The position numbers and the translations under genes were made by a program. Source: Prorocentrum cordatum (Eukaryota; Sar; Dinophyceae; Prorocentrales; Prorocentraceae). From it: a stretch of 64,000 nt of DNA. The stretch is taken from the NCBI GenBank assembly GCA_963575745.1, contig CAUYUJ010017893.1:624112-688111 (forward strand), in the 5' to 3' direction. Within the stretch, counting starts at the first letter, position 1. Each line of letters begins with the position of its first letter. This document shows, piece by piece, positions 12,590-47,633 of the stretch. Below the pieces are notes generated by a model. It was not told where the DNA came from. It ran no database searches and was given only the letters and a program-made list of their open reading frames with translations.

Positions 12590-13060
12590 CCCTGCGCACC
12601 CCCTGCGGTGTCGAGAAAGTGCCACGCCTGTTGCGCCCTGGACGACCGGCTCGGATAGCGGCCGTGCTCAGAGACCACCACCTGCGGACCCCCTAAGACT
12701 ACGAGAATATGCCACGCCTGCTCCGCCCTGGACGACCGGCTCGGATAGCGACCGCGCTCAGAAACAAAGACCTGCAACCCCTGTGAGGCGTCGAGAAAGT
12801 GCCACGCCTGCTATTCCCTGGACGACCGGCTCGGATAGCGGCCGCGCTCAGGGACCACCCCCTGCGCACCCCCTATGGTGTCGAGAATATGTCACGCCCG
12901 CTATGCCCTGGACGACCGGCTCGGATAGCGGCCGCGCTCAGAGATCACCCCCTGCGCACCCCGTTTGGCGTCGAGAATGTGCCATGCCTGCTATGCCCTG
13001 GGCGACCGTCACGGGTAGCGGCCGCACTCGGACACCACCCCGTGCGCACCTTTGACGAAC
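12590..13060 (+). repeat. 90-bp minisatellite, array A
   Basis: Five units carry GTGCCACGCCTGCT, CTGGACGACCGGCTCGGATA and GCGGCCGCGCTCAG. The same unit forms a longer array at 15235-16205. The long plus-strand frame here is a repeat translation. Confidence 0.9.
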
Positions 13061-16205: not shown

Positions 16206-16364
16206 TGCGCATCCTACACGTGCGATTTGTGTATGGCGTGTGATGTGTATGTGTATGATGCGTGTGCGGCCGTATCGGGACGTGTGCCTCATGTGGGTGC
16301 CCAATCTGTTGTGCATACGTCTTGGGTGTGTGATGCTATGAACGCGCCAGGCGTGCACTAGCGT

Positions 16365-29066: not shown

Positions 29067-29084
29067 GGGCCCGCGATGTTCCTG

Positions 29085-29775
29085 GGCATCCCAAAAAGGG
29101 ATGCCCCCAACGCAGCGATTATTGACGGCATCCCAAACAAAAGGTGCCGTCAAACAATTTGGGGCGCCGTTGATAAGAGGCGCCCCAAAAAAAGGGATGC
29201 CCTCAGCGCGGCGATGTTTGAGGGCATCCCAAACAAGGGTGCCGTCAAACAGTTTGGGGTGTTGCTGTTAAGGGGCATCCCAAAAAAGGATGCCCTCGAC
29301 GCAGCGATGTTTGAGGGCATCCCAAACAAGGGTGCCGTCAAACAATAGGGGTGGTGTTGATAAGAGGCACCCCAAAAACGGATGCCCTCAACGCAGCGAT
29401 GTTTGAAGGCATCCCAAACAAGGATGCCGTCAAACAGTTTGGGGTGTTGTTGTTAAGGGGCATCCCAAAAAAGGATGCCCTCGACGCAGCGATGTTCGAG
29501 GGCATCCCAAACAAGGGTGCCGTCAAACAGTTTGGGGTGTTGCTGATAAGGGGCATCCCAAAAAAGGATGCCCTCAACGCAACGATGTTTGAGGGCATCC
29601 CAAACAAGGGTGCCGTCAAACAGTGTGGGGTGTTGTTGGCAAGGGGCATCCCAAATACGGGTGCCCTCAACGCAGCGATGTTGGAAGACATCCCAAACGA
29701 AGATGCCGTCAAACATTTTGGGGTGTTGCTTGGTAAACGCAGCGATGTTTGAGAGGATCCCAAACAAGGGTACCG
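29085..29775. repeat. 93-bp tandem repeat encoding a 31-residue peptide repeat
   Basis: About seven units, each with two inverted motifs: GGGCATCCCAAAAAAGGATG can pair with its own CATCC end, and TTTGAGGGCATCCCAAACAA follows. Because 93 is a multiple of three, one plus-strand frame stays open from 29351 to 29752 and repeats GIPKKDALDAAMFEGIPNKG. An opposite-strand frame is open too. I see no start context and treat it as non-coding. Confidence 0.85.
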
Positions 29776-31041: not shown

Positions 31042-31147
31042 AACGTAATCCGAAAGCCCTTATAACGGCGACGAGGCGACGATCGAAAGCAGTGCCCCGG
31101 CACTGCTTTGAACGCGTTCAAAGCAGTGCCCCGGCACTGCTTTGAAC
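31042..31147. repeat. Left terminal inverted repeat with paired palindromes
   Basis: The outer part (AGCCCTTATAACGGCGACGA at 31055-31074) matches the right end. Palindrome 1 (31085-31113) has a worn left arm. Palindrome 2 (31116-31147) is perfect in its 15-bp arms with a CC spacer. Confidence 0.85.
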
Positions 31148-33395
31148 GTATGATATGATGATATGATGATGATTATGATTGATGATGATGATGATATTTC
31201 CAGCGTACACTGTCCGCAACTGCGGCAATCAACATCATGCTCCACTTGCCCGCAACTGCGGCCATCACCAACGCTGCCCCTCGAAGCTCCGCGGAGGGCG
31301 CTCGGCAGGTCGCCCGCTCGAGCCCCACTCGACTTCACGCTGAGGAGGCGAGCCCTCAGGGGCATTGTCCGCAACTGCGGCATGATCAGAGGCCACCACT
31401 GCGCGCCATCAGCGCCCCATTCGCTCGAGCTCCAGTCCCACCAGGACCAGCCCTGCCATCTCGTGGCGGGACTGCGCGCCTCCCATGCGCCGCTGCCGCT
31501 GGCGTCCCAGGACCCAGCCGCCACTGCGGCACAAGAAGGGGTCGCATCGTCGCCGTTGGCAGCTTGCGGCGGTGGCGTGTTCCCAGCTCGCTCAGCCCCA
31601 GCGTCTCTCCCCGCAACAGCGGTTCCCATCTGGGGTCGGACGCCCTTCCCCGCAACTGCGGTGTCCGCGTAGCTGCCCTTCTTGCCGCCCTTCTTGCCGC
31701 CCTTCCTGCCGCCCTTCCTGCGTTCCAACCTCGCGGCGAGTCTTTCAGGTGACCTGCGGCACGTAATGTGCGTGAAAGCCACCAGAGGGAAGTGCGCTCC
31801 GTGCCTCGCCCTGCCGAAGGCGCCATGCCATATCTTGTCGTCGAGGTTGCCCTGCTTCACTCTGAAGGGATGGCGCACCTAATCGTCGCGTTCCCTGCGC
31901 GCCATCCTTTGCTCGAACTCCGCAACTGCGGTCAAGGATTCGCCAGATGGCGTCAGGAAGGCGCGCGTCTTGTTTTCAACGGGCTCAGCCTTGGGCACGT
32001 AAGTCTGAAGCATCTTCCCAGGGCCATTCGTGTAGTCGAAGACAGGGAAAGACGGATCATGCTGGGTCGTCAAGAATCCGCCCTCACGGTCGTGCAGAAC
32101 ACTCAGGCCATGGAGAAGCTTGTACTGCCCAGGACAGCTTATGAACAAAATCGCCATGCTGTCTGCCCTGGGCTGGCCGCCTGCTGTCTTCCAGGGGGTC
32201 CACGCGGCGACGTCCACAGTCAGGCCGCAATTGCGGCACCAGGACACAAGCTGGAACATGCACATGTTGAAGTCCCCCATGCAGACCTTCACGTCCCATT
32301 CCCTGACGTAGGCGACGAACCAGTTGAAGAACTCATGGAGCTTCGTGACGCCCCAGTCTTGGTTGGCCAAGCTGTGGTGGACGTGCACCGCCATGACGTT
32401 GAAGGAGCCCCCCAAATGGGTCACGGCCTGGTCCAGGTGGACGCGCACCACCATCGCCCAGGAGTACTTGTTGTGCAGCTTTGGCGCAGGAGCCTCCGCA
32501 ACTGCGGACGGTTTCTTCTTCTTCTTCTTCGTTTTGGACTTCTCCTGCTTGTGGAAGAGTCTCGCAAAGTCTACGTGTTCAATGTGGCCGCCACTGCGGT
32601 CCCTCATGCCAACAATGAGGGTCCCTGATGGCTCGCCGCCCTTAACGCACAGGTAGTTGCATTGAGTCCGACTCCGAAACCTATCGTCCGCAACTGCGGC
32701 TGCACTGTCCCTCGCGTCGTGCTCCCCACTGAGTACCGCGCAGGTCTCGTCGTCGCACTCGCAGAGGGCGATGATCTGGGCAGGGTTCGCGCGGAGCTGC
32801 GCCCACTCGTCCGCGCGTTTCGTGGGTCTAGCTGCAGTAAAAAAAGACAAAGTTAAAAAACAAAAAAAAACAAAAAATAAATATAAGCGAAAAAAAAAAA
32901 AAAAAAGGGAAAAAAAATAAAAAACTAGAAGTAAAAGAAAAATAAAAAAAAAAAAAGATAAAAAAAAAAAAAAGCTGCTGTCCCCTCCGAAATTGCCACG
33001 AAGATCCGACCCGTTCCCGCTTCGAACTCCTTTTTCTCCCCCATGCGTCGACAGACTCTTGTTTTTCCGACAATTGCTTTCTCGTTGATGGGCACACCTT
33101 CCATGGTCTCCGCGACGACAAAACTCTCTCGATTTGGGAGGTCACGTGCTGCCTGCAACTGCGGCTCCCGCACCTCCCCCCGGGACACAGGCCCTCGACA
33201 GCGTGAGGCAGGCCGAGATTTTAAAAAAAAAAAAAATAAATAAAGATAAACAACAAACGCGACGGTGCTGTCGCCATCTTGCGTCCGCTGGTCGTCGTCA
33301 TCATCTGCAACTGCGGCTTCCTCGTCTTTGCCTCCCTCCTCCTCCTCAGCGTTGTGGATGAACACCGTTCTGGCGAATCGAGGTCCACGGTCCAT
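31060..33395 (-). CDS. Endonuclease/exonuclease/phosphatase-family protein, probably spliced
   Basis: The core exon (32828 to about 31882) reads PAQIIALCECDDET (candidate metal-binding Glu), FNVMAVHVHHSLANQDWG (candidate His) and VCMGDFNM at 32263-32283, the classic GDFN motif. In frame, after a TAG at 31881-31879, it continues to ARHGAHFPLVAFTHI, which sits where the SDHxPL motif is expected. An ATG at 33395 opens a likely first exon (MDRGPRFARTVFIHNAEEEE), with SFVVAETMEGVPINEKAIVG in a second. Poly-T tracts at about 33218-33240 and 32829-32990 then look like introns, the second ending TACTGCAG. The frame stays open into the terminal repeat (TAA at 31062-31060). Likely a nuclease serving the element. 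Confidence 0.55.
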
Positions 33396-33761
33396 ACTCC
33401 CTGAGGATGCGCTCGGGCGCGCGGGCGGCCACATGCTTGCGTCTTCGCGTGCGCCACCTCGAGCCACGGTGGCTACGGAAATGGATCTTGAATGGGCATG
33501 GGGTCGGATGGAGGGAGGAGACAAAGAGGATTCGAGGAGTGGCAGAAGGAGGGCGAGGACTCAAAGGAACCGAAAGAACAACAAATGAACTGGCGGAGAA
33601 GCAGAAGGAGGGCGACGATTGCAAGGGACTGTGAAAGGATTATTTTCACAGCAGCAGGAAGACCGCAACTGCGGTTTTGCCTCATCTCCTGCCCGCGCGG
33701 GAGCCGCTTGGAAAAACAACTTCCCTCTGGACTTCCTGTGGGTCCGCAACTGCGGCCTGCA

Positions 33762-36700
33762 TCACGCTAGGGCTGGGATTACCAGCGCCATTTGCCCTCC
33801 CAGGGTTCTCACTGTTTCCGAATGCACGAACAGCGACAGCGCCGAACGGTTCCCAGACGCCGCGTCGTTCTCGACTTTTTGCAGCCACCCAGCAAACGTG
33901 AGCGGCCATTGCTCCTTGTGCTGCTTGCACATCTCCTCGTCCCAATGCGTCTTGAACCATGCCCACTCCCCCCTCTGCTCGTCTGAGAGGACGCCTTTTC
34001 CGCGAGCCAGGCGATCCAGAGCTGCCATCCTGATTTTCTTGATCTTGAACTCCTCGGGATTCCACTGCGCCAGGGCGTGTTTGTTAGCCAAAGCCGTTTC
34101 CACCGCAACTGCGGCCTCCTTCTTTGCCCTCAAGGCGGCCTCGGCCTCTCGAATCTGCTTCTTGAGATCGTGCAACGCCTTCGTCCTGTCGTTCGCTTCC
34201 AGAGCCAGGCGCCGCTTTTTCGCCGCCACTGCGGCTTCTTGGTCTCGCTGGGCAGTCAACGCTCGTAGGACCTCGTTGTCCTCCCGCGCCAGCTCTCTCA
34301 ACCGCTTCTTTTGTTTGTGTCGTTGCTGTCGGCAATCCTGCGCTAGTTTATCCATGCCCACTTGGCGCAGCATATCTTCCGCCTCGCGGAGCGTTTCTGC
34401 CAAGGACGTCGCCACTGCCACCTGCTCGGCCGCCTCTGCGTCGACCACGCAGTCCATGGATACCGAGGATCCTTGAGGCCCAGGTGCCGCAACTGCGGCA
34501 TCGCAATGTTCCGCAAGAGCCTCGGCCCACGAGGCCTCCTCTTGCTCTTCGTCCTCCTCGTGCTCCTCGTGCACCTCCTCCTCCTCCTCCTCCCCGCCCT
34601 CCTCATCGCCCTCCTCGTGGCCTGGCTCCTGGCCTAGCGCTTCGTCGCCGAGCTTCTCCAACACGGAATCTGTGGCGTCGTGTTTCTCGTATTCGTGTAA
34701 GAGACGCAGCACGTCATTGTAGGACCATTTCAAACGTTTCTGCTCGCATTCTTCCCTCACCTCCGCGACTGCGGTGTCCACTTTTGCTCGCAGCCCCCCT
34801 GCTTCCCAGAGTTCCGCCGCCTCTCGGCAAATCTCGAGATCTCCTGACTTGTCGAAGGGCGCTCGAATTCCCACTTTCAGGAAACCTTTCGCGGCGTCCA
34901 AGTGCAACTGCACATTCTCCAACACTGACAGCATCAAGTCGGCGCAATCGGAACGCCGCAACTGCGGCACGTGCTTCCCCAACGCCATTTGCTGCACCAG
35001 CGCTTTGGTCTCGAGGGCAATGTACCGGCGCTTCACGTGCTGGTTCAAGTCCGTGTCCACGGGCTGCGCAACTGCGGTCGCCCCCCCGCCGTGAATGATC
35101 AGCACGTAGCCGCGCTGCCAGGCGAGTCTCCGCACAGCGTCTGATTTGTGCGGGGAATGGTCGTCGGCCATGAGGATGCGCCACTTTCCCCGCAACTGCG
35201 GGTCGTCGGGCCAGGCCCGCAAGTGCCGCTGCAAGAATGATACAACGTCGTCTGCGCGGTAGGACCCCTTCTCGGACGTCGCCGTGCTCACCCAAGACGG
35301 ATAGCCGCGACTGCGGGCATGTGCGGCCAAGCCCTCAGCGATGACAGATCCCCCCTTGAACATTAGCTCCGCCGGCGGTGGTCCGCAACTGCGGATGTCC
35401 TCCGCGTCGCTCGACACCGTCAGGTTCGCTGTCCACCGAGCCCTGCTGTCGTCATGCGCCTCGACAAGCGGGACAATGCCACCCTTCACAGCCAAGGTCG
35501 GCTTCGAGGCCGACGACGACTCGTTGTGGTGAAAGGGCGACTGGTCCCAGTTCAGGATGTGCGGGTCGTACCCCAGAAGCTCCTCTGCAGCTGCGCGGAC
35601 CCTGGCCACGTTCAAGATCATAGTCTCAAAACGAGATTGGAGCAACCATTTTGGCACCTTGTACTTGCGGTTCGGCTTCTTCATGCTCAGGCCGTAGGAG
35701 CGCCGCCACTTCACCCACCACCGAGGCCGCAACTGCGGCACCATCGGTTTGCCTCCCCGCTTCATTGTCTCCACGCAGTAGTCCGCGACGAGTTGCTTCG
35801 CCTTCGTAACCAGCAGGGATTGGGAGAACCTGGCCAACATCTTGGGCCTCTCCTCCGCAACTGCGGTTCGCTTGGCCACCGCCTTCCAGTCCACGGAGTA
35901 CCTCATGTGGGACCACCACTCGTACAGAGCGGCTTCCAGCCATGGAGCCTTGTTCGGGCGCCCTTGGTTGCCCCGCGCGCGGCGTCGGCCATGCACGCCC
36001 GCCGTGCCATGTCCACCTTGTGTGCGCCAGTTTTGAAACCACTTGGAGACGGCCTGGCGCTGCTGGACGACCCCCATGCCCTTCGGCCACGTGAACCGCC
36101 CGCAAAAAGACGCGATTGAATTCCGTGGCAGAACGCCCTCGCCCATCCAACCACAACTGCGTGCGTGCGCCTCCAGTTCTTTGCAAACCAGTTCGCGGTC
36201 TCTGAGCATGTGCGGGCACACGCGCCGCTTCTGTTCCGCAACTTCGGGTTTTGGGCGTGCGCTGGCCAGTGCGTGCGCCCTGATCTGCTCCTCCTGCAAC
36301 GCCTCGGGCATAGCCTCAGCCATGGCAAGCAATATACCCATGTCCTGCACGCCCGTCTGCCACTCTAACGCCGCCATGAGAGCGGGGCGTGGCGCGCTCG
36401 CCTCTCTCGGCGCCTCTGCTGGTTCGCCCTCGCCCTCGGAGTCGTGCAGGACCATGGGTCCAGCAGGGCCGCTGGCCCCGCAACTGCGGTACGCCCGCAC
36501 CTCCTCCAAGGTTAGTTCCTGCGTGACAACGAGCATGTCGTGCAACCACGGTTCGTCCCAGCGGCGCACCCCGAAATCGTACAGTTCCTCCCGAAGCCAT
36601 TTGCGCGTCTCGGCATTTTGCGGTTTCTGCAACATCATCGCCATAAGGTCAATGCCGCAGTTTCCATCGCAAACAGTCCCTAGGACCCATTGTCCCAGAG

Positions 36701-37877
36701 GACCGTAGAACCTGTTCAACGCGTCCGCCCCCTCAGAGCACACGCCACCCACCGCAACTGCGGCCACCCAGTGGCGCACCTCATGGAGAGGGTTCTCGGG
36801 AGTCACGGGCCTGAGTTCCACCGTTGTCCATTCCCCGAACAGATCCTCAGCAGCGGCGAGTACGCACGCCACGCCGTCGACGGCGCATGGCTCAGTGCAC
36901 TTCTCCTTTGCCCAAGGCATGTAGAAGTCAAGGAGGTCCTTGCGGTTCTCGCCTTCCCACACGTAAGGTCGACGCCCGAACCGCAAGGCAAACAGCATGA
37001 AAGCTGAATACCCTATGTAGGAATTCTCGGACAGAATCTGCCTCAGGAGAGCCATCACGACGTCAGGCACCGTCGCCGCCACTGCGGCCTGGATCTTTGG
37101 CGCGTCTTCCACAGGTACACCTTTCTCTGGCGCCAGGGGTGGCGCCGCGACTCGTGGCCGCAAGGCGTCGCCAACAGGCGCCGCAACTCGTGCTGCAGCC
37201 TTTGGGTCTGGGCACGGGAAGAATGCGACCTGCGTCTTCGACCAGTTCTCTGGCAGCGGCCGCGCTGGTGGCAAGCGTGCTGGAAGTGGTGTGTCTTTGT
37301 CCGCTTCCACTCCCTCAGGAGCTTCAACCGCAATCGCGGTCTCCTGCGCAGCAGGCGGGTCTGGTGTTGCGTGCACTTGAGCTGGAGGAGCTGGAGGGAC
37401 TGCTGCTGCGGGTGCTTCGGGCACAGGGGCTGCTGGAGGTTTGGGTTCTGCGGGTGCTTCTGGTGCTGGAGCTGCGTGTCCTTCTTGCGCAGGAGCTGCG
37501 AGTTCTGCTGGTGTTGCTGGTGCTATGTGTGCAGGGGCCGAGGGAGCCGCAACTGCGGTGCCGCCTGGAGCCGCAACTGCGGGGGGTGGCGTCGCGCCCG
37601 GTCGCCAAGCAGACGGCCGCAAATGAAAGCGAGGCGGCTCAACAAGGCCGTACTGCGACGCGGGCCACTTCGCTAGGCACGGAAAATCCGCACATGCGTG
37701 CACCTTTATCTTCTTGGGGCACGGAACGCCGCTACTGCGGCCCAAGATGTTGGCGAGCCCAGTGGTGCCATACTTCGTTTTCCTCGGTGCGCAGCCGCTG
37801 TCGTAATGGAGCCACTCCACCTCGAAATGCGTTCCGTCCTCCTCGCCATACCATGTCCGCCCCACGGGAACATCCAT
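33762..37877 (-). CDS. CENP-B/pogo-like DDE transposase, 1371 residues
   Basis: ATG at 37877. Residues 1-90 form an unknown N-terminal domain (TWYGEEDGTHFEVEWLHYDSG); 95-260 are Ala/Pro-rich. Around 404-407, VCDGNCGIDLMAMML resembles the OTU-protease DGNC motif. About 600-760 is a helix-turn-helix region of CENP-B/Tc5 style ending in RWWVKWRRSYGLSMKK. The catalytic core has LNWDQSPFHH (D778), RILMADDHSPHKSD (D905/D906) and AVAQPVDTDLNQHVKRRY (D941), a DD35D spacing as in the DDE_1/pogo group. An acidic run and a long coiled coil follow (1100-1290). Size is about twice a normal pogo transposase. All three acidic residues are present, so it may be active. Confidence 0.85.
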   Translation of the reverse strand: MDVPVGRTWYGEEDGTHFEVEWLHYDSGCAPRKTKYGTTGLANILGRSSGVPCPKKIKVHACADFPCLAKWPASQYGLVEPPRFHLRPSAWRPGATPPPAVAAPGGTAVAAPSAPAHIAPATPAELAAPAQEGHAAPAPEAPAEPKPPAAPVPEAPAAAVPPAPPAQVHATPDPPAAQETAIAVEAPEGVEADKDTPLPARLPPARPLPENWSKTQVAFFPCPDPKAAARVAAPVGDALRPRVAAPPLAPEKGVPVEDAPKIQAAVAATVPDVVMALLRQILSENSYIGYSAFMLFALRFGRRPYVWEGENRKDLLDFYMPWAKEKCTEPCAVDGVACVLAAAEDLFGEWTTVELRPVTPENPLHEVRHWVAAVAVGGVCSEGADALNRFYGPLGQWVLGTVCDGNCGIDLMAMMLQKPQNAETRKWLREELYDFGVRRWDEPWLHDMLVVTQELTLEEVRAYRSCGASGPAGPMVLHDSEGEGEPAEAPREASAPRPALMAALEWQTGVQDMGILLAMAEAMPEALQEEQIRAHALASARPKPEVAEQKRRVCPHMLRDRELVCKELEAHARSCGWMGEGVLPRNSIASFCGRFTWPKGMGVVQQRQAVSKWFQNWRTQGGHGTAGVHGRRRARGNQGRPNKAPWLEAALYEWWSHMRYSVDWKAVAKRTAVAEERPKMLARFSQSLLVTKAKQLVADYCVETMKRGGKPMVPQLRPRWWVKWRRSYGLSMKKPNRKYKVPKWLLQSRFETMILNVARVRAAAEELLGYDPHILNWDQSPFHHNESSSASKPTLAVKGGIVPLVEAHDDSRARWTANLTVSSDAEDIRSCGPPPAELMFKGGSVIAEGLAAHARSRGYPSWVSTATSEKGSYRADDVVSFLQRHLRAWPDDPQLRGKWRILMADDHSPHKSDAVRRLAWQRGYVLIIHGGGATAVAQPVDTDLNQHVKRRYIALETKALVQQMALGKHVPQLRRSDCADLMLSVLENVQLHLDAAKGFLKVGIRAPFDKSGDLEICREAAELWEAGGLRAKVDTAVAEVREECEQKRLKWSYNDVLRLLHEYEKHDATDSVLEKLGDEALGQEPGHEEGDEEGGEEEEEEVHEEHEEDEEQEEASWAEALAEHCDAAVAAPGPQGSSVSMDCVVDAEAAEQVAVATSLAETLREAEDMLRQVGMDKLAQDCRQQRHKQKKRLRELAREDNEVLRALTAQRDQEAAVAAKKRRLALEANDRTKALHDLKKQIREAEAALRAKKEAAVAVETALANKHALAQWNPEEFKIKKIRMAALDRLARGKGVLSDEQRGEWAWFKTHWDEEMCKQHKEQWPLTFAGWLQKVENDAASGNRSALSLFVHSETVRTLGGQMALVIPALA

Positions 37878-38252
37878 GATCGGTCGCGTGGCGAACGACT
37901 CGGGCCGGGCACTCGGCTGCGGGCTACAGAACTAGGAAGAGGGAGGGGAGGAGGGAGGAGCAACTGAAGACGATGCGGAGGGGCGAAGAAGGAGGTACTT
38001 TTCAACAACGCCCGCGCGGAAGCCCCAATCATCGCGCGCACAGGGTTTCGATGCTTCACTCCATGCTTCTCTAAGAAAAACGCTCGCCCACACAAGTTGG
38101 CGCACTAAGGCGTGCACCCGTGGAACACCCTAAACCTTCCGCCTGCCTCCTCACACCGCCTCGCCCTCCGCGTGTTCACGCGCACCCAGCCACCCCGCAA
38201 CTGCGGGCACTCAGTAGCCCCACCGCAACTGCGGCCCATACGGCTTCGGGCC

Positions 38253-39251
38253 TCAGTCGAACAGACTGGGGATTTGGAGCTCGAGGTAATCCAGAGCCGC
38301 TTGCTTGCGCTGGTGCTGCGTCATGCCCTCCCACTCGTAGTCGTAGCCCTTCACCGACTGCGCCGACTGCCACTTCTTCTTTGTAAGTTTCTTCACATCC
38401 ATCTCGATCCTTTTGCCCTTGTTGGCACACTCTCGCGTGATGGTCGCGACCCAAGCGCCCTTGAAGTCCCAAACGACGGTGAAGCCAGAGCCGCTCCCCT
38501 GCGCCACGAGGGGGTCGACCTCCTTTTGCTTCGCCAGCGGGGTGGCAGGGTCAACCGCCGTTGCCCAGTCCCTGTCCGCCACTGCGGCCTCGTCCTTGTC
38601 GCCGTCGCCGATGTCGGGGACACCGCCGAGGCTCACGTCGTCCACGATCATGTCGATCAGCCACCCAAGGTCTGCAGCGTCCAGCCACAACGTCCTCCGC
38701 TTGAAGCTGGCCACCCGCACGTTTCGAACGGCCGTGTCGTGCGGAAACTTCATGGGGCTCTTTGCGGGCATCTGTACAGAGTGCACAGTGGCTATGGCCG
38801 ACTCCACGGCCTCGCCCCTGGGCAGGCCAGTAGTCGCCGCACGCGTTCCAGTCTTCTGCTTCTTGGCGCTGGTCGGGGTCGCTGCCTGCTTCTTCGTGGC
38901 GTCCGTGGGGCTGACCAGGGCCGACATGGGGTCATCTGCTTCGTCCCCCGCGTCGCCGTCGCTCTCATCGTCCGCAACTGCGGCGCCGCCCTGCTTCGCG
39001 ACTTCTTTCTTCAGCGCGTCCCAGGCCTTGGAGGCCTTCAAGGCCCCTGCGGTCGGTTTACCTTTGGCGCACACCTTGAGCAGCCAAGCCTTTTGCATGT
39101 TCACGTGCACGAAAGTTATCTCTCCGAGGGGCCATGCGTGGAGCACCTTGACATCCTTTTCGGGGACGGGGGTGGTCTGCGCAAGCCAACCTCCACGGAT
39201 GCACAAGACCTTCTCAACGCACACAGGGCTCCATTCGCTCGAAGTCGGCAT
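38253..39251 (-). CDS. Element protein D, unknown, 332 residues
   Basis: I chose the ATG at 39251 (MPTSSEWSPVCVEKVLCIRG) because the open frame upstream is only a GGCCCTCCAGG minisatellite. The N-terminal 90 residues look folded (EKDVKVLHAWPLGEITFVHV). The middle is acidic then Lys-rich (KKQAATPTSAKKQKTG, a possible nuclear signal). The C-terminal half includes RTLWLDAADLGWLIDMIVDD, GFTVVWDFKGAWVATITREC and ends LDYLELQIPSLFD. No known domain is recognised. It lies 375 bp upstream of the transposase gene on the same strand. Confidence 0.65.
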   Translation of the reverse strand: MPTSSEWSPVCVEKVLCIRGGWLAQTTPVPEKDVKVLHAWPLGEITFVHVNMQKAWLLKVCAKGKPTAGALKASKAWDALKKEVAKQGGAAVADDESDGDAGDEADDPMSALVSPTDATKKQAATPTSAKKQKTGTRAATTGLPRGEAVESAIATVHSVQMPAKSPMKFPHDTAVRNVRVASFKRRTLWLDAADLGWLIDMIVDDVSLGGVPDIGDGDKDEAAVADRDWATAVDPATPLAKQKEVDPLVAQGSGSGFTVVWDFKGAWVATITRECANKGKRIEMDVKKLTKKKWQSAQSVKGYDYEWEGMTQHQRKQAALDYLELQIPSLFD

Positions 39252-39389
39252 GTGTGCTACTGCGCTGGACACAGCCGCAACTGCGGGCAAGGCGGGGGTG
39301 CGGGCAGTGGGGCCGCGCGCGGTTGAGCCAGATGGCGAGCTGAACGCCTCCCTGGAGGGCCTCCCTCGGTCCCTGCGATCCTCGCGCCT

Positions 39390-39615
39390 CCCTGGAGGGC
39401 CTCCGCCCTCAGAATGCTTCAAAGCAGTGCCGCGGCACTGCTTTGAAGCATTCTGAGGGCGGAGGCCCTCCAGGGCCTCCGCCCTCAGCCCAGGGCCCTC
39501 CAGGCCCTCCAGGGCCTCCAGGGAGGCCCTCCAGGGCCTCCAGGGCCCTCCAGGGCCTCCAGGGCCCTCCAGGCCCTCCAGGGCGGAGGCCCTCCAGGGC
39601 CTCCAGGGAGGGAGG
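39390..39615. repeat. Perfect 86-bp palindrome followed by a GGCCCTCCA minisatellite
   Basis: Bases 39390-39475 are a perfect palindrome centred between 39432 and 39433. Its core is CAAAGCAGTGCC and its inverse, the same core as the terminal palindromes. From 39476 to about 39615 GGCCCTCCAGG-type repeats follow. The palindrome sits between genes C and D of the element. Confidence 0.85.
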
Positions 39616-39931
39616 GAGGGAGTGAGGAAATGAGTAGTTTCGGCTTCCAACTTGGGAGGAAGGGGAGAAAGGAGGAGGAGAGAGGGAGGAAGTGGAGGAA
39701 GGGCGAGGGAGGAGAGGGAGAAGGGAGGGAGGAGGTCCGTTTCGAACCTCCGTGCTCGATCGTCAGCGGTCCGCTACTGCGGCATCAGCTAACAGAAGCA
39801 GTGACACTGCAAACTACACGAGCGCTCCGCAACAGCGGTCACGCGTGCGCCCCCCCCTTCGGCCTGTTGCCCGCAACTGCGGTCACGCGAGCAAGCCGCC
39901 CTGACTGCCGCCACTGCGGCTTCTTAATTAA

Positions 39932-42358
39932 TTAGAGCGACATCTTCCCGCTTTCGTCGAACCCTTTCTTCGATTTCTTCGGCGCGGGCTGGCCCGAAGG
40001 CTTCCCTTTGGCCCTCTTGGCCGCGTCCGTCTTCCACGTCTCCTCGGCCGCCTTCTTCTTCGGTGCGGTTTTGGGTCTCGCCTCCCACAGGAGCTCTTCT
40101 CCTTTCTTCACGGCCGTGGTATTCACCAGCACAGGGACATTCACGGCGAGCACGACCCCGCCTGTCCCAGGCACGCACACCGCCAATTCTTTCGTCTCCA
40201 GCTCCATGTTGATGCGCGCAACTGCGCTTTCATTACGGCTGTTTCTCTGCTGGATCTCCTGTTCCGTGACTCTGTTGACTGCCCAGAAGACGTGCATTGT
40301 CTCTTGCGCATCCCACTTCCATGCTCTCAACCGCACATCGTGGTCAGCCACGTCGGCGGGCGTCTTGTCCGCAGGCGGCTTGAACTCGGGGTGCAAGTAG
40401 AAGGTCGTGGGCGTGGCCCCATTTGGATCTCCTTTCACCCAGACTTGCACGGCCACCCTCTCGGGGTGCGTGCTTGCGGCGTGCACCTTGGATGCCTTTG
40501 GGACGCACGGCCACAACTCGATGCATTTTTCGTCGTTTGCAGCGGTTGCCTTGACGGTGCGTTTCTCTGTGTCAGCGTCTTGCAACACCTCTACTTGCGC
40601 TTCCGCAACTGCGGACATGTGGCGCGCCCAAAGGCACAGCAACACTGCGCTGACCAAAGCAGGCTCCCGCCCCAGCTCCTTCGCTGCCGCTGAACGCCTC
40701 CATTCGGCGATTGGCAAAGGGAAGGATCCGCGTGGAATGGCCGTCGTGTCCCTGCTGCGCTGGTGGTTCGTTGGTAATTGCGTCGTGGGGTCAAAGGAAA
40801 TGACCGTCGGCATCAACTCGTGCTCCTCTGCGGAAGCCTTTGTCTTCCCCGCCACTGCGGGCTCATTCGGTTCTGGGCGCGGCAACGCGTTGAAATCGAA
40901 CCAATCGGGCTTCCCGCCTCGGACTCCCACTTCGCCGAGGGCCTTCTCAAGGGCGTCCCGATTGGACTTCGGCTCCACCTTCCCCGTGGCCTCCGCGCAA
41001 GCGCGGAGGAGCGCCTGACGATGTCCTGGGATACTTCGTTCCTTGACGTGGGTGTCCTTCAGGTACTGCATGAAGCCGTCTGCGGTCAGTATGCACAGGT
41101 TCGCCTTGAACTCGATCGCCTTCTCAGGGCCCATGCCGTCGATGGCCTTGCTCAGCGTGAACAAGTACAAACGGAGAGCCGAGTTCATGTCGATGAGGAA
41201 GTCTCGGAACTCCTTCTTCTTCCACGATTGTTCTGGGTCAGGGCACCACACAGGAGTGTCAACGCCCCTCTTCCTCGCAGGCGCGTTCCTGTAGCATCGC
41301 ATCACCACGGCAACCTTGACCCACGGCACTTCGTCGGGAAGCTCGCTGGCTGCCCCGAAGGCACCGAGCCGAAGGGCCCTTCTCCTGGAGTTCACGTAGA
41401 CCTCGCAGAACTGGAGCAGCAAGGGGATGAACTGCGCTTTCGTGCTCCCGAGCCCAACAACGAACGAGAACAGCTCAATGAAGTCTGGGTCCTGAACGAC
41501 TCGATCGAGTTCGTGCATGACGGGGAGCTTGACCTTTTCAAAGGCAACCTGATCCGCAACTGCGGCGTGCAGCTCCGCGTCAACAGCCTTGCACAGAACA
41601 CGGAGCGCGGTGAGTTCAGTCGTTCGCAACGCAAAATCGGCTCCTTTATTGAGGGACTGGCTGATGAGCGAAGCACCAGTGGGTTCCTCGTCCATGATTT
41701 TCCAGCTAAGCACTTCCATGAGCATACCCCCCTGCACGAGTTTCTTAGCGACAGGGTCATGTTCCGCCACTGCGGCCATGTCGAGATTGCCGTCCTTATC
41801 GAGCACGCGCTTCAGCCTCGCGCTCTCGTCCTCCGTGAACTCCATGCCTTGGGGGATGGGCCACTTGGCTCCCAGGGCGCACGCCCGCAACACGAGGCAC
41901 AAGTGGGAGTGCGAACACGTCCCATACGCAACGTCTGTTCCGCAACTGCGGTCGAAGCACGCAGCGAGGTGGCCGGTCGCTTTTTCCAGATTGTACTCTG
42001 TGTACGTCTGGAACTTCGGGTCCTCCTTTTTTCTCAGCACCAGCTCTTGTGCTGGGTACATCTGAACGCAGACACCTTCGTGGTCAGCTTCGGCTTGCGT
42101 GAATCCAGCCAGGAAGATTTTCACAGCGAGTTCCCGAACCCTTTCCTGCTGAGGGTAGTGCCCGCCTCGGTTGCCCGTGTGCGGGGCGAGCATGAGCACA
42201 GGGAGGCGCACCTTGTCCCCTGTCCTGAATCTAGACCTCAAGGCGTTGGCCCTCTGAAAGATCCCTTGCGTTCCGCCTGGAACTGCGGCTGTCTCGTCCG
42301 CCACTGCGGCTTTCTTGTCCGCCACTGCGGCATTATCTGTGCCGACGCTGTCGTTCAT
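39932..42358 (-). CDS. Element protein C, unknown, 808 residues
   Basis: The ATG at 42358 opens MNDSVGTDNAAVADKKAAVA; the frame is open a little further upstream. Residues 30-110 (LPVLMLAPHTGNRGGHYP, then ERVRELAVKIFLAGFTQAEA) recall the entry segment of ParB-like nuclease domains, but this is weak. The centre is helical (DPDFIELFSFVVGLGSTKAQ, FRDFLIDMNSALRLYLFTLS). The tail is Lys-rich (KKKAAEETWKTDAAKRAKG) and may bind nucleic acid. The signature 12-mer appears at its 5' end as repeated AAVAD. Family unknown. Confidence 0.7.
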   Translation of the reverse strand: MNDSVGTDNAAVADKKAAVADETAAVPGGTQGIFQRANALRSRFRTGDKVRLPVLMLAPHTGNRGGHYPQQERVRELAVKIFLAGFTQAEADHEGVCVQMYPAQELVLRKKEDPKFQTYTEYNLEKATGHLAACFDRSCGTDVAYGTCSHSHLCLVLRACALGAKWPIPQGMEFTEDESARLKRVLDKDGNLDMAAVAEHDPVAKKLVQGGMLMEVLSWKIMDEEPTGASLISQSLNKGADFALRTTELTALRVLCKAVDAELHAAVADQVAFEKVKLPVMHELDRVVQDPDFIELFSFVVGLGSTKAQFIPLLLQFCEVYVNSRRRALRLGAFGAASELPDEVPWVKVAVVMRCYRNAPARKRGVDTPVWCPDPEQSWKKKEFRDFLIDMNSALRLYLFTLSKAIDGMGPEKAIEFKANLCILTADGFMQYLKDTHVKERSIPGHRQALLRACAEATGKVEPKSNRDALEKALGEVGVRGGKPDWFDFNALPRPEPNEPAVAGKTKASAEEHELMPTVISFDPTTQLPTNHQRSRDTTAIPRGSFPLPIAEWRRSAAAKELGREPALVSAVLLCLWARHMSAVAEAQVEVLQDADTEKRTVKATAANDEKCIELWPCVPKASKVHAASTHPERVAVQVWVKGDPNGATPTTFYLHPEFKPPADKTPADVADHDVRLRAWKWDAQETMHVFWAVNRVTEQEIQQRNSRNESAVARINMELETKELAVCVPGTGGVVLAVNVPVLVNTTAVKKGEELLWEARPKTAPKKKAAEETWKTDAAKRAKGKPSGQPAPKKSKKGFDESGKMSL

Positions 42359-42599
42359 ATCTGTGCCGACGCTGTCCGCCACTGCGGCCCGGAGCTCCGA
42401 TATGGCGGACTATGGCACGACGTCCGTCGCTCAGGGTGGAGGCGTGTGTGCCAGGAGCCCAACGACCTGCTGAGCCGAATGCCTGCGGACGACTGAAGGC
42501 TCAGTTTTAATCCAAAATATCGGGCGAGAGCTTGGGGGGGGCGCAGGCTGGAGGAGGGAGGGGGGTGCAAGCTGGAGGAGGACGAGGAGGGGAAGGGGA

Positions 42600-42840
42600 A
42601 GGAGAGCTAGGACGGAGGTGGCGGGGGGATGCGGCCTGGAGGAGGACGAGGAGGGAGGAGGGAGGAGGGAGGAGGGAGGAGGGAGGAGGGAGGAGGGACG
42701 ACGACGACGACGACTGCTGACGACAGACGACAGACTTGACGACGACGACGACCGACGACGACTGCTGACGACAGACGACAGACGCGACGACGACGACGGC
42801 AGCGACGACGACGAGGACGGACGACGACGATGATGATGAC
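42600..42840. repeat. GGAGGAGG then GAC tracts
   Basis: GGAGGAGG (to about 42695) is followed by ACGACGACG and a near-tandem of about 55 bp, CTGACGACAGACGACAGAC. It lies in the spacer between genes B and C. Confidence 0.9.
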
Positions 42841-43058
42841 CCAGCGCGCGCACACTTATTGCAAACTGCGGCTTCGCAACCGCGTGCTCTCCTATTATAC
42901 GCAACCGCAACTGCGGCTTGCAACCGCAACCCCGCAACTGCGGGCTATCCTACACCGCAACATGCACTCCATCGCTAATGGGATGCACTACGCAGGCAGC
43001 AGGCGCCCAGTAGTACCGAGCTCTGTTCCGCAACTGCGGCTCCTCGGTCTTGCCGCAC

Positions 43059-44885
43059 TCACCGCTCGTCCGCAACTGCGGCAGATCGCGGCTCTTCGTG
43101 CTTCCGCTTGCTCGCCCGACTTGCGCGTCCGTGGCCGACGAAGACGATGTTTTGGTGGATGCCCTCGCACCAGTGCGTGCTGAAGGTCTTCTCGTTGAGC
43201 TCCTTCTGAATGACCTTGCCGATTGGGGGCAGCGCTGCCAAGCCGAGCTTTTCTCTGACTCCGCTACTGCGGTCAGGGTCATCCTCCCACTTGGGCATGT
43301 ACTTCGCTGGGACCCAGCGCCGAGAGATGATGGAGTCGCTTGTTCGATGCATCCAATCAGGGAGCCACTGGGGATCGTTCTTCGACGGCCTCCCTGCAAA
43401 ATCCAGGTTGTAGTCCGCAATGCGCACGTCGCACGGGCCAATGGGGAGGACGTAATTCGGATGCATGACGCGTGTGCCCTCCACAATGCCTCCGAACAGG
43501 GCGGGTCCAGCCCTGAACACCACCCCCACCGGGCAGGTGTAGCTGGCTCCGCAACTGCGGCCAAATGCTGCGAGCTGCTCAGGCGGGATGTCAAACAGGC
43601 CGCACAAGAACCGCACATCATTTTTATGGATGGAAGCAACCGCGTCCTTGAAGAAACCTGGCTGCCACGCTGTTTGTTCTGTTTGCGTGATCTTCTGTTG
43701 GAGACGTTCGGTGACTGCGTGTCTGGACACGACGGCAAAACGGATCACCGCGGCAGGATTCATGTCGGAGCCCTTCAGGCGAAAGCGCAGGATCGTGACG
43801 GCGTGGGTGGCCCCAACAACATGACCCGCAACTGCGGTCTCTGCGATGATGTGCGGGCGCACGAGCACCACGCCCGTGTCTCTGAACAGGGCAACCGTCG
43901 TCCAGTAAGGCTCCGCGGTGTTGTTTTTCAAAATGACAGCGTCTTCGACGGCAGTCCTGAGTCCAACGGGAACGTCGTAGCTGCAAGCGCCTTCGACGTT
44001 CCCCGTGCGGAACAGCTCGGGGTCCCATACGACGAAGACGACCGCCGCAGTTTGGTGCAAGATGCACCTGAAGACATCTTCCTTTGTTGCCACCTTCGTG
44101 ATGACCACCACGTTGAACACCAAAGCGATGGTGGACGGAACCCGATTGCCGTCTGCTGTACGAAGGAATCCTTCGTTCCACTTGGGGCGTTCCCCAAAGT
44201 AGTTTATCCCTGGAGGGGACCTGGTCCGCTGCTTCTTCCGCGGTGCTCCCGCATCTTCCCGCAACTGCGGTTCCGACGGAGGCCCCGCGCGACCCCGCGA
44301 CTGCGGTTCTGACAGCGGCGAGTCTTCCGTGGGAGGCGGCCTTTTCCTCGGCCGCGAATCGGCCGAGGCGGTTGTCTCGGCGGCTTTCTCCTGGGAGGCG
44401 GCCTCGTCTTCGGGTTGGGCGCCTCGTTTGGACTCGGCTGCGAGCAGCACGGCCGAGGGCGCGCTGCTCCCAGATGAGCCGCGCGCGGCACCTGGCTCGC
44501 CGGCCACCCCCGCAACTGCGGTCTCGGTGGCGGCTCCCGTCACTGCTGGTTGGTCCTGCTGCTTCGTCGGCGTCTGCGCCCGAGGCCCCCATTTTGCCTT
44601 GGGGGTCAAGTGCGCCCTGCGCAACTGCGCCTCTTCGCGCCTCCCACCAGCAGAGCTCCCACTCGCAGCGCTTATCGGCGGCGGCGGCCGATATTCCCGC
44701 GAGGAGCTAGACGACTGCGGGGAGGCCTCGCGCGGCGGTCGCTCGGGGCTTCCGCTACTGCGGTCCTCCGTCGGCTCCGCGACTGCGGCATCCGCGGCAG
44801 CCCCTTGCAGGCCGAACCTTTCCCGCAGTTGCTGCTTCAGCTCGGCGAACCGCTTGTCGACCTCGGCTTTGCGACCTGGGTCCAT
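43059..44885 (-). CDS. Element protein B, unknown, 608 residues
   Basis: The ATG at 44885 opens MDPGRKAEVDKRFAELKQQL, a short coiled coil. Residues 45-235 are Ser/Pro/Glu-rich and likely disordered, ending in RKKQRTRSPPG. From about 240 the protein is folded: IALVFNVVVITKVATKEDVF, LHQTAAVVFVVWDPELF, VVGATHAVTILRFRLKG, KNDVRFLCGLFDIPPEQLAA, then GPCDVRIADYNLDFAGRPSK. The order of strands and the FLCGLFDIP segment faintly echo the endonuclease fold of the EEP gene, but no catalytic set is evident. Family unknown. Confidence 0.7.
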   Translation of the reverse strand: MDPGRKAEVDKRFAELKQQLRERFGLQGAAADAAVAEPTEDRSSGSPERPPREASPQSSSSSREYRPPPPISAASGSSAGGRREEAQLRRAHLTPKAKWGPRAQTPTKQQDQPAVTGAATETAVAGVAGEPGAARGSSGSSAPSAVLLAAESKRGAQPEDEAASQEKAAETTASADSRPRKRPPPTEDSPLSEPQSRGRAGPPSEPQLREDAGAPRKKQRTRSPPGINYFGERPKWNEGFLRTADGNRVPSTIALVFNVVVITKVATKEDVFRCILHQTAAVVFVVWDPELFRTGNVEGACSYDVPVGLRTAVEDAVILKNNTAEPYWTTVALFRDTGVVLVRPHIIAETAVAGHVVGATHAVTILRFRLKGSDMNPAAVIRFAVVSRHAVTERLQQKITQTEQTAWQPGFFKDAVASIHKNDVRFLCGLFDIPPEQLAAFGRSCGASYTCPVGVVFRAGPALFGGIVEGTRVMHPNYVLPIGPCDVRIADYNLDFAGRPSKNDPQWLPDWMHRTSDSIISRRWVPAKYMPKWEDDPDRSSGVREKLGLAALPPIGKVIQKELNEKTFSTHWCEGIHQNIVFVGHGRASRASKRKHEEPRSAAVADER

Positions 44886-45550
44886 GGCGTGGCCGCGCGC
44901 GGCCCCCGTCCGACGGGGGAACTGCGGCCGGCTTGGGAGAGGAAGGACAACGAGGGAGACGGCGGGGATGAGGACGAGGAAGGCGAAGAGGAGGATGGAG
45001 AGGACGCGACGGAAGAGGATGGCGCGAAGAGCTCAGACGAGGGTGAAAGGAGCAAGGGGACTGCGACGAGGATGACGGGGCAGAAACGGAGGAGGAGGAA
45101 TCAACAAAGTCCGCAACTGCGGCCCTCGGGGGGGACTGCGACGAGGACGACGGGAAATGACTCGGCCAACGGAGGCGGGCTACGGCCAACGGAAGGAACT
45201 GCGACGAGGAGGAAAGGCGGAGGGAGGAGACTGCGACGAGGACGACGGGGAAGGGGCGACGAGGACGACGAACAACTGCGGATCCATCTGTTTAAGTACC
45301 TGTCTCCGCAACTGCGGCCGCGCTAATTAACGTCACGAGTGCTTCAACGGAGGTGATGCGCGCCCGAAGCACCTAATTACAGCGGTCAGTCGTGGGAGCG
45401 CCGCAACTGCGGCCAAGCTGCATGAAGTCGCTAGAAGGCAGCGCCGCAACTGCGGCCGAAAGCGCGCATAGTGAGTCAAACGAGCGCGGCGTCACGCGAT
45501 CGGTCCCCGCAACTGCGGTTCCATGGCTGCGCAATCCCGCAACTGCGGTG

Positions 45551-46717
45551 TCAAGGCTGCGCGGACCACCGCGGTTGCAGCTGCGCCCCCTTGCTCGCGT
45601 CGAACCGCCCAGGATTCGGATGGGCGTGCAGCATCTTCCAGAACGTGAACGTTCCGTGGCCATCGCTCTTGCCGAGACCTGCCCTCGGGCCCCGCACGGG
45701 ATGCGAGTGCGGCTCCACCTCATACGTGTTGAACTTCGGGCTAGACCAGGATGGGTGGACGCGAATGCCCGAGCCGTCGTCGCGGATGAGGACGAAATCC
45801 CACTGGGGCAGAGGGATTCTTTGCGCCTGTCCTCTGTCCACCCCTTTCGTGTGCCTCATGTTGTCGAGACTGCTAGGGCACGGGCGGCACTCGCAGCGGA
45901 CCAACCCGCGACTGCGGTCATTGTCAGGGCCGCACACGACGCGCAGCATTGTAGGTCCATCCATCTGCGCGACCATCTCCAGCCAAGACCACGGCACTTT
46001 GACAGTGTGGTCCCAGTCCCAATCCCTGTTGTCCTGCGCCTTCCCCTTTGCGCGGTACTTAAGGATCTTCGAAATTTCCTCCGCAACTGCGGTACCTCCG
46101 AAGACGGGCGTGCGGCTGCCGAAAGGGTTTTCTCGGTCTTCGTACTCGTCTCGGAACCACTTCAAGGCCGCGTTGTGCTGCTTATAATTGCCGTTCCAGT
46201 TCGCCCTGAAGTTCTCGAAGAATTCCAACTTGAAAATTGGCAGCGGCTCATTGCGCACAATTTGAAACAGCGCAACTGCGCCTTGTTCTTCGCGCCCTGG
46301 GGGAAGCAGGGGACCGCCTCCTTTGCCCGCCGCTGTTGCGGCCGCGGGCTCCGCGGCAGGAGAACCTGCCGAGGCACTCGAGCGGCCACCTTCCCATGCA
46401 TTCCACCAGCCACCCTCGTCGTCCCACCAGCGGGCGCCCTCCATTCCCCAACCCTCGCATCCGTTGCCGCCCCATCCGCCGCCCTCCCATCCGCGACTGC
46501 GGTCACTTCCGTCGCCGCCATCCTGCGCTTTTCCTCTCCATCCGCCAAGAGAATCTCCGCCGCCCCAGCCGCCACTGCGGTCACCTCCGCCGCCGTATCC
46601 GCCACTGCGGCCGCCCCAACCCCCACTTGTTCCCCAACCGCCGCCGCTGCTCTTTGAAGAATCCGCAACTGCGGCCCGTGTTTCCTCTTCCGCTTTGTCA
46701 TCCCACCCTGCACGCAT
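45551..46717 (-). CDS. Element protein A, unknown, Gly/Trp-rich N-terminus, 388 residues
   Basis: I chose the ATG at 46717 (MRAGWDDKAEEETRAAV). The frame is open to 46921, but that extension is partly translated GAGGAG microsatellite. Residues 20-130 are Gly/Trp/Ser-rich (WGTSGGWGGRSGGYGGGGD), like RNA-binding low-complexity regions. The C-terminal part is compact: IFKLEFFENFRANWNGNYKQ, HTVKVPWSWLEMVAQMDGP, LPQWDFVLIRDDGSGIRVHP. It is the first gene of the array when read on the minus strand. Family unknown. Confidence 0.6.
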   Translation of the reverse strand: MRAGWDDKAEEETRAAVADSSKSSGGGWGTSGGWGGRSGGYGGGGDRSGGWGGGDSLGGWRGKAQDGGDGSDRSRGWEGGGWGGNGCEGWGMEGARWWDDEGGWWNAWEGGRSSASAGSPAAEPAAATAAGKGGGPLLPPGREEQGAVALFQIVRNEPLPIFKLEFFENFRANWNGNYKQHNAALKWFRDEYEDRENPFGSRTPVFGGTAVAEEISKILKYRAKGKAQDNRDWDWDHTVKVPWSWLEMVAQMDGPTMLRVVCGPDNDRSRGLVRCECRPCPSSLDNMRHTKGVDRGQAQRIPLPQWDFVLIRDDGSGIRVHPSWSSPKFNTYEVEPHSHPVRGPRAGLGKSDGHGTFTFWKMLHAHPNPGRFDASKGAQLQPRWSAQP

Positions 46718-46799
46718 CTCTGCCCCGACTGCAGGCCGCGGAGGCGGGCGCGAGCCCGCCCAACCGCCGTGAAACCTACCGTCGGCGCGGGCTTGAGCC

Positions 46800-47400
46800 G
46801 AACGTGCATGGAGGAGGAGGATGAGGAGGAGGAGGGTGAATGTGAGGAGGATGATGCGTTCCTGGGAGGTGTGCCTTCGCGTGCAACACAAGAGCCCTGA
46901 GAATTCCTGAGGCCCCTCCAACAGCCAAGGACGCGGATGACAAGAAAGTCGAGAAGATTGGGAACCGATTGAGGATTAAGAGGCGTGCGACGAAAGGGAT
47001 GATGATGACGAAGAGGAAGATCAGTGAAGGGGAGGAGCGGACAGGAATTATGGAGGAGTGATAGCAGAGGAGGAAGAGGGGGAAGGGGGAGGAGGAGGAG
47101 GAGGAGGAGGAGGGAGAGGAAAAGGGGGAGGAGGAGGAGGAGGAAGAAGGTGAGGAGGAGGAGGAGGAGGAGGAGGAGGAGGAGGAGGAAGAGGAGGAGG
47201 AGGAGGAGGAGGAGGAGGAAGAGGAGGAGGACGACGACGACGAGGAGGAGGAGGAGGAGGAGAGGGAGAAGGAGAACGGGGACAGGAGGACAAGGACGGA
47301 GAAATATAACAAATGAGGGGGAGGAGGCGGAGGAGGAGGAGGACGAGGAGGAGAAGCAGGAAGAGGAGGAGGAGAGGGGGGAGGAAGAGTGCGCGTGAGA
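46800..47400. repeat. GGA-rich region inside the right end
   Basis: GAGGATGAGGAGG near 46810, then nearly pure GGA from about 47088 to 47260 and GGAGGACGAGG to 47400. Frames here are low-complexity. Confidence 0.9.
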
Positions 47401-47523
47401 CTGGGAGAACGAGGTAATTAATTAGAGAGGGAACGGGGGAGGAGGGAGGACAAGGAAGAGCATACAGCGACGAGAAGAGGAGAAGGAACAGACGAAGGCT
47501 CCTGCTGATCGCATTTCCGCATC

Positions 47524-47633
47524 GTTCAAAGCAGTGCCGGGGCACTGCTTTGAACGACTGGTGATGTTCAAAGCAGTTCCCCGGCACTGTGTTCCATCGT
47601 CGCCGTTATAAGGGCTATTGGATTAGGGGTCGT
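47524..47633. repeat. Right terminal inverted repeat with paired palindromes
   Basis: Palindrome 47524-47555 has perfect 15-bp arms with a GG spacer. A second (47566-47595) is worn. The outer part CGCCGTTATAAGGGCT ends at 47616 and GGATTAGGGGTCGT leads to the TA at 47634-47635. Confidence 0.85.

Follow-up and report, generated by a model that had tools for sequence, protein, structure and literature searches.

The window analysed here, a 64,000-nucleotide stretch of contig CAUYUJ010017893.1 of Prorocentrum cordatum, contains a 16.6-kb transposon through whose genes and spacers runs an array of 67 copies of a 12-base word, all in the same orientation. In the word, a 4-bp inverted repeat flanks the loop NACT; on the sense strand of the genes it reads CCGC-AGUN-GCGG. 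Its bases are held by selection that acts on the nucleic acid and among element lineages, and its stem changes in ways that keep the arms paired. It may be, with a probability that we put at roughly 45% from the sequence comparisons below, that each 12-mer is a self-identity hairpin tag, read in single-stranded form, most likely on sense RNA, by a protein of the element.

What is conserved is the word CCGCNACTGCGG, with a loosely constrained fifth base and an outer base pair that can be swapped (GCGCNACTGCGC); it occurs 67 times on the plus strand of the element and never on the minus strand. The sequence-only reading, a model's note on the window, had described the narrower word CCGCAACTGCGG and its one-base variants, recurring about every 225 bp from 31214 to 46674, always on one strand and nowhere else. 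That word is present 44 times on the plus strand and not at all on the minus strand, and its sites do lie in that interval (the last at 46663-46674), while the element itself runs from 31048 to 47623. The spacing of the 67 sites has a mean of 234 bp and a median of 192. The exact word is absent from the remaining 47 kb of the window. With one mismatch to CCGCAACTGCGG allowed, there are 74 matches on the plus strand, all inside the element, and four on the minus strand. Of these four, the one at 32225 is CCGCAATTGCGG, a self-complementary word, and another, at 14330, is outside the element.

Seven further full or nearly full copies of the element were compared with the window copy by pairwise alignment; they were chosen where motif matches clustered and are not a random sample. 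Their forward and reverse tags number 58/0 in C226, 41/0 in C15 (whose 3' end was not located), 62/0 in C303, 67/0 in C577 (whose sequence stops short of the 5' end), 67/0 in C384, 64/0 in C744 (a copy that includes 1,400 N) and 68/0 in C1336, together 427 forward and none reverse, so that the single orientation claimed for the window is borne out beyond it. Identity to the window copy is 69.5% for C226, 58% overall for C15, 99.0% for C384, 99.2% for C1336 and about 99.7% for C744 with N left out, and these near-identical copies suggest that the window subfamily was amplified recently. The small fragments C182 and C4 were compared by inspection only. The sites in the window are as follows.

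31214..46674, plus strand: array of CCGCNACTGCGG hairpin tags in one orientation, 67 sites of 12 bp with start positions 31214, 31250, 31369, 31518, 31650, 31920, 32496, 32588, 32688, 33663, 33744, 34103, 34223, 34487, 34763, 34956, 35190, 35305, 35383, 35727, 35855, 36478, 36752, 37076, 37547, 37571, 37729, 38195, 38223, 38576, 38972, 39275, 39771, 39871, 39908, 40603, 40849, 41554, 41764, 41940, 42298, 42319, 42376, 42905, 42932, 43028, 43070, 43261, 43549, 43826, 44259, 44295, 44510, 44752, 44777, 45111, 45306, 45401, 45444, 45507, 45537, 45906, 46081, 46491, 46569, 46599, 46663
40216..40227, plus strand: variant tag GCGCAACTGCGC, outer pair swapped, in all five copies compared
44619..44630, plus strand: variant tag GCGCAACTGCGC, also in C303, C226 and C577
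46270..46281, plus strand: variant tag GCGCAACTGCGC, also in C303

The array disregards reading frame, as had been noted. Coding sites fall in three frames of the six conserved open reading frames (ORFs), where 28 encode AVA, 13 RSxG and 5 PQLR; the other 21 sites lie outside the ORFs, and the ORFs hold 3.8 sites per kb, the rest of the element 4.8. Shuffling the synonymous codons of the six ORFs gives a mean of 1.05 sites and a maximum of 4 in 200 runs, against 46 observed, which rules out a chance origin of the ORF sites.

Conservation extends to individual sites. Of the 67 window sites, 45 are unchanged in C226 (the fifth base aside), 12 differ by a single mismatch and 5 by at least two, 3 are partly gapped and 2 fall in a clean gap of 12 bases; in C15, 23 are unchanged, 32 carry mismatches, 7 are partly gapped and 5 fall in a 12-base gap. 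Clean gaps are few, and sites therefore come and go mostly by point change, which rules out insertion of whole 12-mers, the alternative that the earlier note had posed, as their main source. Sites in the same alignment column number 46 between the window and C226 (of 67 and 58), 23 between the window and C15 (of 67 and 41) and 22 between C226 and C15 (of 58 and 41), against means of 0.12-0.19 and a maximum of 3 in a slide control, and the flanks of the shared sites have diverged to background in C226 and C15.

Four-fold degenerate positions separate the demands of the motif from those of the protein. Between the window and C577, 3 of 96 such positions are changed in the motif and 426 of 1225 outside it (35%; p = 2e-13); the corresponding figures are 2/107 and 130/1721 (7.6%) for C303, 4/94 and 426/1245 (34%) for C226, and 7/75 and 504/922 (55%) for C15. 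Similarly, in the spacers the changed bases amount to 3 of 220 in the motif versus 403 of 3614 outside it in C303, 7 of 219 versus 1236 of 2945 in C577, and 7 of 208 versus 1674 of 3604 in C226. Because motif bases hardly change at four-fold degenerate positions or in spacers, the constraint acts on the nucleic acid and not on the protein. At face value the closer C84 (98%) shows no protection of the motif, differing from the window at 8 of 319 motif bases and 85 of 5436 others; one absent or misaligned site accounts for most of the former, and without it there is one clean motif change where about five are expected.

The stem changes in a manner that preserves pairing. In three copies, with the rest of the motif intact, the outer pair has undergone 16 double changes, all of them Watson-Crick (14 G-C and 2 T-A), versus 9 single changes. 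Among five copies (the window, C303, C226, C577 and C15), alternative paired stems occur at 16 aligned places, which equal 13-15 distinct positions (15 once 44549 and 44586 are merged as one site split by the alignment, 13 if 46270-46330 holds only two sites). These stems comprise 9-11 of GCGC/GCGC, two of TCGC/GCGA and one each of CCGT/ACGG and CAGC/GCTG. Five align to a consensus site elsewhere, four of them in C15 (at window positions 37729, 41940, 43826 and 44510) and one in C303 (at 45401, CAGC/GCTG); at 44510, the state in C226 and C577 is intermediate, GCGC/GCGG. Wherever two copies both retain the loop and three or more pairs of a motif site, changes on both sides never break the pair. 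Where retention of the partner site is not required, many doubles are unpaired (for example 20 unpaired and 15 paired between the window and C15), a result to be expected of site losses. From these comparisons, pairing at the outer pair is well supported, and pairing of the whole stem is likely.

Among 4-bp hairpins, those with the loop nACT number 71 in the window, 64 in C226 and 50 in C15, whereas other loops average 1.5-2.6 (1.67 in the window), and the loop bases ACT are conserved. Pairing between the fifth and eighth bases can be ruled out, as the fifth base varies in coding sites; in spacers A prevails (18 of 21 window sites, 17 of 20 in C226), and the base is less uniform in C15 and in coding sites.

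A loop-specific hairpin that keeps to one strand in both genes and spacers most readily makes sense as a tag on the RNA of the element. Four base pairs (consensus CCGC/GCGG) and a tetraloop, NACT on the plus strand and AGUN in the gene transcripts, would form each tag, and some 70 tags would mark the gene-bearing stretch every few hundred bases, in coding sequence and spacers alike. The putative reader, either one of the five conserved ORF products without an assigned function or the transposase, would recognise loop and stem together and thereby tell molecules of the element from those of the host, whether for export, for protection from silencing or for preferential action on the element's own copies. 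That the tag is read on RNA rather than DNA, that the reader is encoded by the element, and that a benefit is gained are points that we infer from these patterns. More broadly, and with rather less than even confidence, the array might be described as an element-wide identity code in nucleic acid, consisting of about 70 oriented, loop-specific micro-hairpins in genes and spacers that would be read on transcripts by the element's own protein and kept by lineage selection at a cost in codon and amino-acid freedom. Among the three guesses of the sequence-only reading, a self-marking tag or an RNA hairpin fits best; the third was a binding site for a CENP-B-like protein, and no CENP-B DNA-binding domain was listed in Pfam scans of the ORFs.

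The placement of the sites would fit tags in a transcript with a tag-free promoter region, although four copies are few. On the side of the genes' 3' end, the first tag lies 59-157 bp from the left inner palindrome (one of several 34-bp palindromes listed below) in all four copies in which that end was located, and 222-1534 bp separate the tags from the right inner palindrome, at the 5' end of the genes, in four copies. On the sense strand, purines are favoured at the three positions directly 5' of the hairpin in the three copies tested.

Several observations weigh against a hairpin tag read on RNA. The stem, at 4 bp, is short. Only the outer pair covaries strongly; pairs 2-11 and 4-9 have a single event apiece and 3-10 has none. 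Pairs 2-11 and 3-10 show mostly single changes or none, and both-sided changes at orthologous sites number only five. Double changes are paired in 14 of 14 cases in the motif, but control hairpins with other loops are also mostly paired (10 of 15), in nine pairwise comparisons that share lineages; we suspect that some of the control changes stem from the 34-bp palindromes. Sense and antisense 12-mers each have a folding energy of -5.0 kcal/mol, and stability does not explain the orientation, because both strands fold equally. Single changes that keep a wobble pair favour neither strand (8 sense, 6 antisense, in a test without power). Additionally, only 23 of the 67 window sites are intact in the distant C15, in whose spacers the motif is less protected (58 of 164 bases changed, versus 1499 of 2891 outside it).

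The main rival, somewhat unlikely in our estimation, is that a protein of the element binds the 12-mer as double-stranded DNA and marks the element for itself in the manner of VANC21, blocking silencing or packaging chromatin. The VANC21 motif YAGTATTAY on the Arabidopsis Mutator-like element VANDAL21 forms same-orientation arrays and is tied to duplex-DNA binding; it resembles the present word in being short, dense, of one orientation, specific to a single transposon family and tied to the success of the element (PMC5735166), and the shared orientation, density and family specificity count for the rival, and the orientation also against a tag on RNA. The half-sites CCGC/GCGG would also suit a dimer, and the near-invariance of pairs 2-11 and 3-10 is as for sequence recognition. 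A dimer, however, predicts that the half-sites change independently, yet the paired doubles at the outer pair outnumber the singles. VANC motifs are mainly non-coding, lie in tandem repeats that turn over, having spread by tandem duplication, and are not described as hairpins in that source (PMC5735166); here, 46 of the 67 sites are in ORFs and occupy three frames, the sites are orthologous single sites with a paired stem, and the element belongs to another superfamily and kingdom. The 45 sites intact at their aligned place in C226, despite diverged flanks, likewise tell against duplex binding of the VANC21 kind.

It is improbable that the hairpin acts in single-stranded DNA, as a priming or loading signal on one strand or as a polarity mark for a DNA motor (like a primase site, KOPS or Chi) during replication or movement. 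One orientation, a site roughly every 200-300 bp and stem pairing would all agree with such a role, but the TA flanks and the DDE-like ORF suggest a double-stranded cut-and-paste intermediate, and Pfam scans of the ORFs listed no helicase, primase or HUH protein.

Quasipalindrome correction can yield paired double changes, and it may be asked whether the arms are merely kept alike in this way, or whether a functionless word has been spread by copying. The paired double changes in hairpins with other loops are what such an artefact of mutation or conversion would produce. It is nevertheless very improbable, given a comparison of four near-identical copies (the window, C384, C744 and C1336, after removal of columns that hold N or lie no more than 5 bases from a gap). 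Changes private to one of the four affect 6 of 747 motif bases and 132 of 14,046 others, while the four-copy majority base diverges from C303 at 9 of 720 motif bases and 1114 of 13,509 others, 6.6 times less in the motif (p = 0.003 for the two-by-two table, which rests on few private motif changes, six in all). The private rate is ordinary and the divergence 6.6-fold lower, and the cause is therefore selection on element lineages, not mutation bias: new motif mutations arise, and lineages carrying them fail to propagate. Such lineage-level selection is the signature that a function in transposition or persistence would be predicted to leave. The conserved loop bases and the rarity of gains by whole insertion speak against an artefact as well. 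Selection for the encoded peptides, among which AVA is commonest (28 of 46 coding sites), is refuted by the conserved four-fold degenerate bases of the motif, with three frames and 21 sites outside ORFs also against it.

In the genome as a whole (4.13 Gb in 21,875 contigs), the exact word occurs 10,869 times forward and 9,622 times in reverse, versus 462 and 457 for the pattern read backwards, and is thus about 22 times commoner than this control (20,491 versus 919). Tag pairs within 30 bp number 1,214 and 1,041 (2,255), against none in either direction for the control. Among the matches listed, the places found are strand-uniform runs or clusters together with isolated singles; none of the eight 3-kb stretches around the matches listed first has a second mismatch-free site, and the stretches C165 and C1021 have two sites each and no element. 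At 40-44 exact sites per element, the excess amounts to some 450-500 element equivalents, by estimate. A host-wide motif is ruled out by the window and whole-genome counts. HIP1, DNA uptake sequences, Chi and KOPS are short, over-represented and in some cases strand-oriented words that mark host genomes, and the analogy that the earlier note drew with the first two is unsupported in that the tag is confined, as far as examined, to one transposon family.

Tag pairs of the window subfamily, with nearly identical spacers, are present on at least 11 contigs (C372, C384, C420, C456, C459, C547, C744, C1074, C1194, C1296 and C1336). Contig C669 (L052:5165-5750) has four same-orientation tags within 600 bp; this stretch shows only short, weak nucleotide matches to the transposon and no protein match, and may represent a small non-autonomous derivative or another element with the same tag. 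Pairs of CCGCAACTGCGG were also seen in 28 stretches of viral contigs (L009-L036), spanning exactly 33 bp in 27 of the 28; these have two sites each and no more, and are taken as unrelated. A search of viral contigs for relatives of the element matched 68 stretches, none of which was confirmed.

By its TA flanks and inverted repeats, the element is of the Tc1/mariner type. Its structural features are listed here.

31048..47623, minus strand (that of all six conserved ORFs): complete transposon of 16,576 bp, delimited by terminal inverted repeats, TA flanks and paralogues
31046..31047, no strand: TA flank, left target-site duplication, adjoining the element end
47624..47625, no strand: TA flank, right target-site duplication, adjoining the element end
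31048..31074, plus strand: left terminal inverted repeat ATCCGAAAGCCCTTATAACGGCGACGA
47597..47623, minus strand: right terminal inverted repeat, reading ATCCAATAGCCCTTATAACGGCGACGA on the reverse strand
31081..31148, no strand: the 34-bp palindrome CGTTCAAAGCAGTGCCCCGGCACTGCTTTGAACG twice in direct succession, imperfect at 31081-31114 and perfect at 31115-31148
39416..39449, no strand: central copy of the 34-bp palindrome; an internal copy is also present in C226 and C15
47523..47598, no strand: two right-end copies of the 34-bp palindrome, at 47523-47556 and, degenerate, at 47565-47598

Terminal inverted repeats are present in the window element and in C226 and can be written with variable positions as ATCC.A.AGCCCTTATAACGGCGACGA. 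TA adjoins six of the seven element ends examined, namely both window ends, the ends of C84, C4 and C15 and one end of C226, the other C226 end being TC. C226 likewise has two 34-bp palindromes near each end. The sequence of the palindrome varies among lineages yet stays largely self-complementary. The palindromes are perhaps transposase sites or a processed RNA hairpin; an Rfam scan gave 19 matches, none at gathering score and mostly of microRNA type at these palindromes. The G+C content of the window is 62%, and that of the P. cordatum assembly is given as 59.7% (PMC10666404).

The six conserved ORFs are as follows.

45551..46921, minus strand: ORF of 456 amino acids, no assigned function, paralogue matches
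43059..44885, minus strand: ORF of 608 amino acids, no assigned function, paralogue matches
39932..42382, minus strand: ORF of 816 amino acids, no assigned function, paralogue matches
38253..39650, minus strand: ORF of 465 amino acids, no assigned function, paralogue matches
33762..37877, minus strand: ORF of 1371 amino acids, putative DDE transposase, paralogue matches and weak DDE_3/DDE_1 matches
31879..32850, minus strand: ORF of 323 amino acids, no assigned function, contains CMGDFN, paralogue matches

All six are real genes, because each product is matched in the paralogues C226 and C15. The best Pfam matches of the 1371-residue product are DDE_3 (0.0024) and DDE_1 (0.022), each found in two of three paralogues and, for the window member, under the curated cut-offs; QPVD and MADDH motifs are visible by eye. 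A site one base short of the word, GCGCAACTGCGG, lies at 35066..35077 on the plus strand, where the peptide encoded at the putative catalytic aspartate is TAVAQPVD (frame derived by hand), and C226 carries the identical word. The other five products match no Pfam family at E 0.01. The CMGDFN motif, which was matched by no search, is suggestive of endonuclease/exonuclease/phosphatase folds. Sequence and profile searches of PDB with the transposase ORF gave no useful match, and single-sequence structure models, the transposase included, were uninformative (mean predicted local distance difference test scores of 36 and 38).

Other repeats neighbour the transposon in the window. A 77-bp unit (CGAAGCGCTGTACTGGGTGGG...) is repeated in tandem about 30 times at 8838-11183. 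Two arrays some 2.3 kb from each other, at 12590-13050 and 15301-16207, consist of a similar repeat of 90 bp (TGCCCTGGACGACCGG...), and a 93-bp repeat containing GGGCATCC/GGATGCCC elements is present seven times just outside the transposon, at 29084-29736.

Features of the array recall several known systems. The yeast enzyme Rnt1p reads hairpins with AGNN tetraloops; the sense loop AGUN fits AGNN, but Rnt1p stems are longer, and the third loop base is fixed in the tag. Dispersed RNA packaging signals, as in phage MS2, are likewise described as many short hairpins dispersed along a genome, on one strand and with a common recognition feature (PMC6281560, PMC4751978); they differ in having a loose consensus where the tag is one near-invariant word, and the tag belongs to a DNA transposon. 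A capsid or coat protein had no Pfam match among the ORFs, PDB having been searched for the transposase ORF only. The element shares TA flanks, terminal inverted repeats and, putatively, a DDE-like ORF with QPVD with the Tc1/mariner-pogo group, and departs from it in its 16.6-kb length, five extra conserved ORFs, paired subterminal and central 34-bp palindromes and the tag array. The 12-mer as text was not found in the literature searched, nor was a description of this element at the level of titles and abstract openings.

The means by which mobile elements distinguish their own molecules from those of the host are mostly an open question, for which the VANC proteins are, to our knowledge, the only worked-out case of self-recognition, and we know of no transposon with such tags running through its genes. 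The tag is short, near-invariant and visible in sequence, and it competes with protein coding, so that the strength of selection on it is measurable. If it is bound as duplex DNA, it would be a variant of the VANC kind in another kingdom; if it is read as an RNA hairpin, it would represent a new kind of transposon biology.

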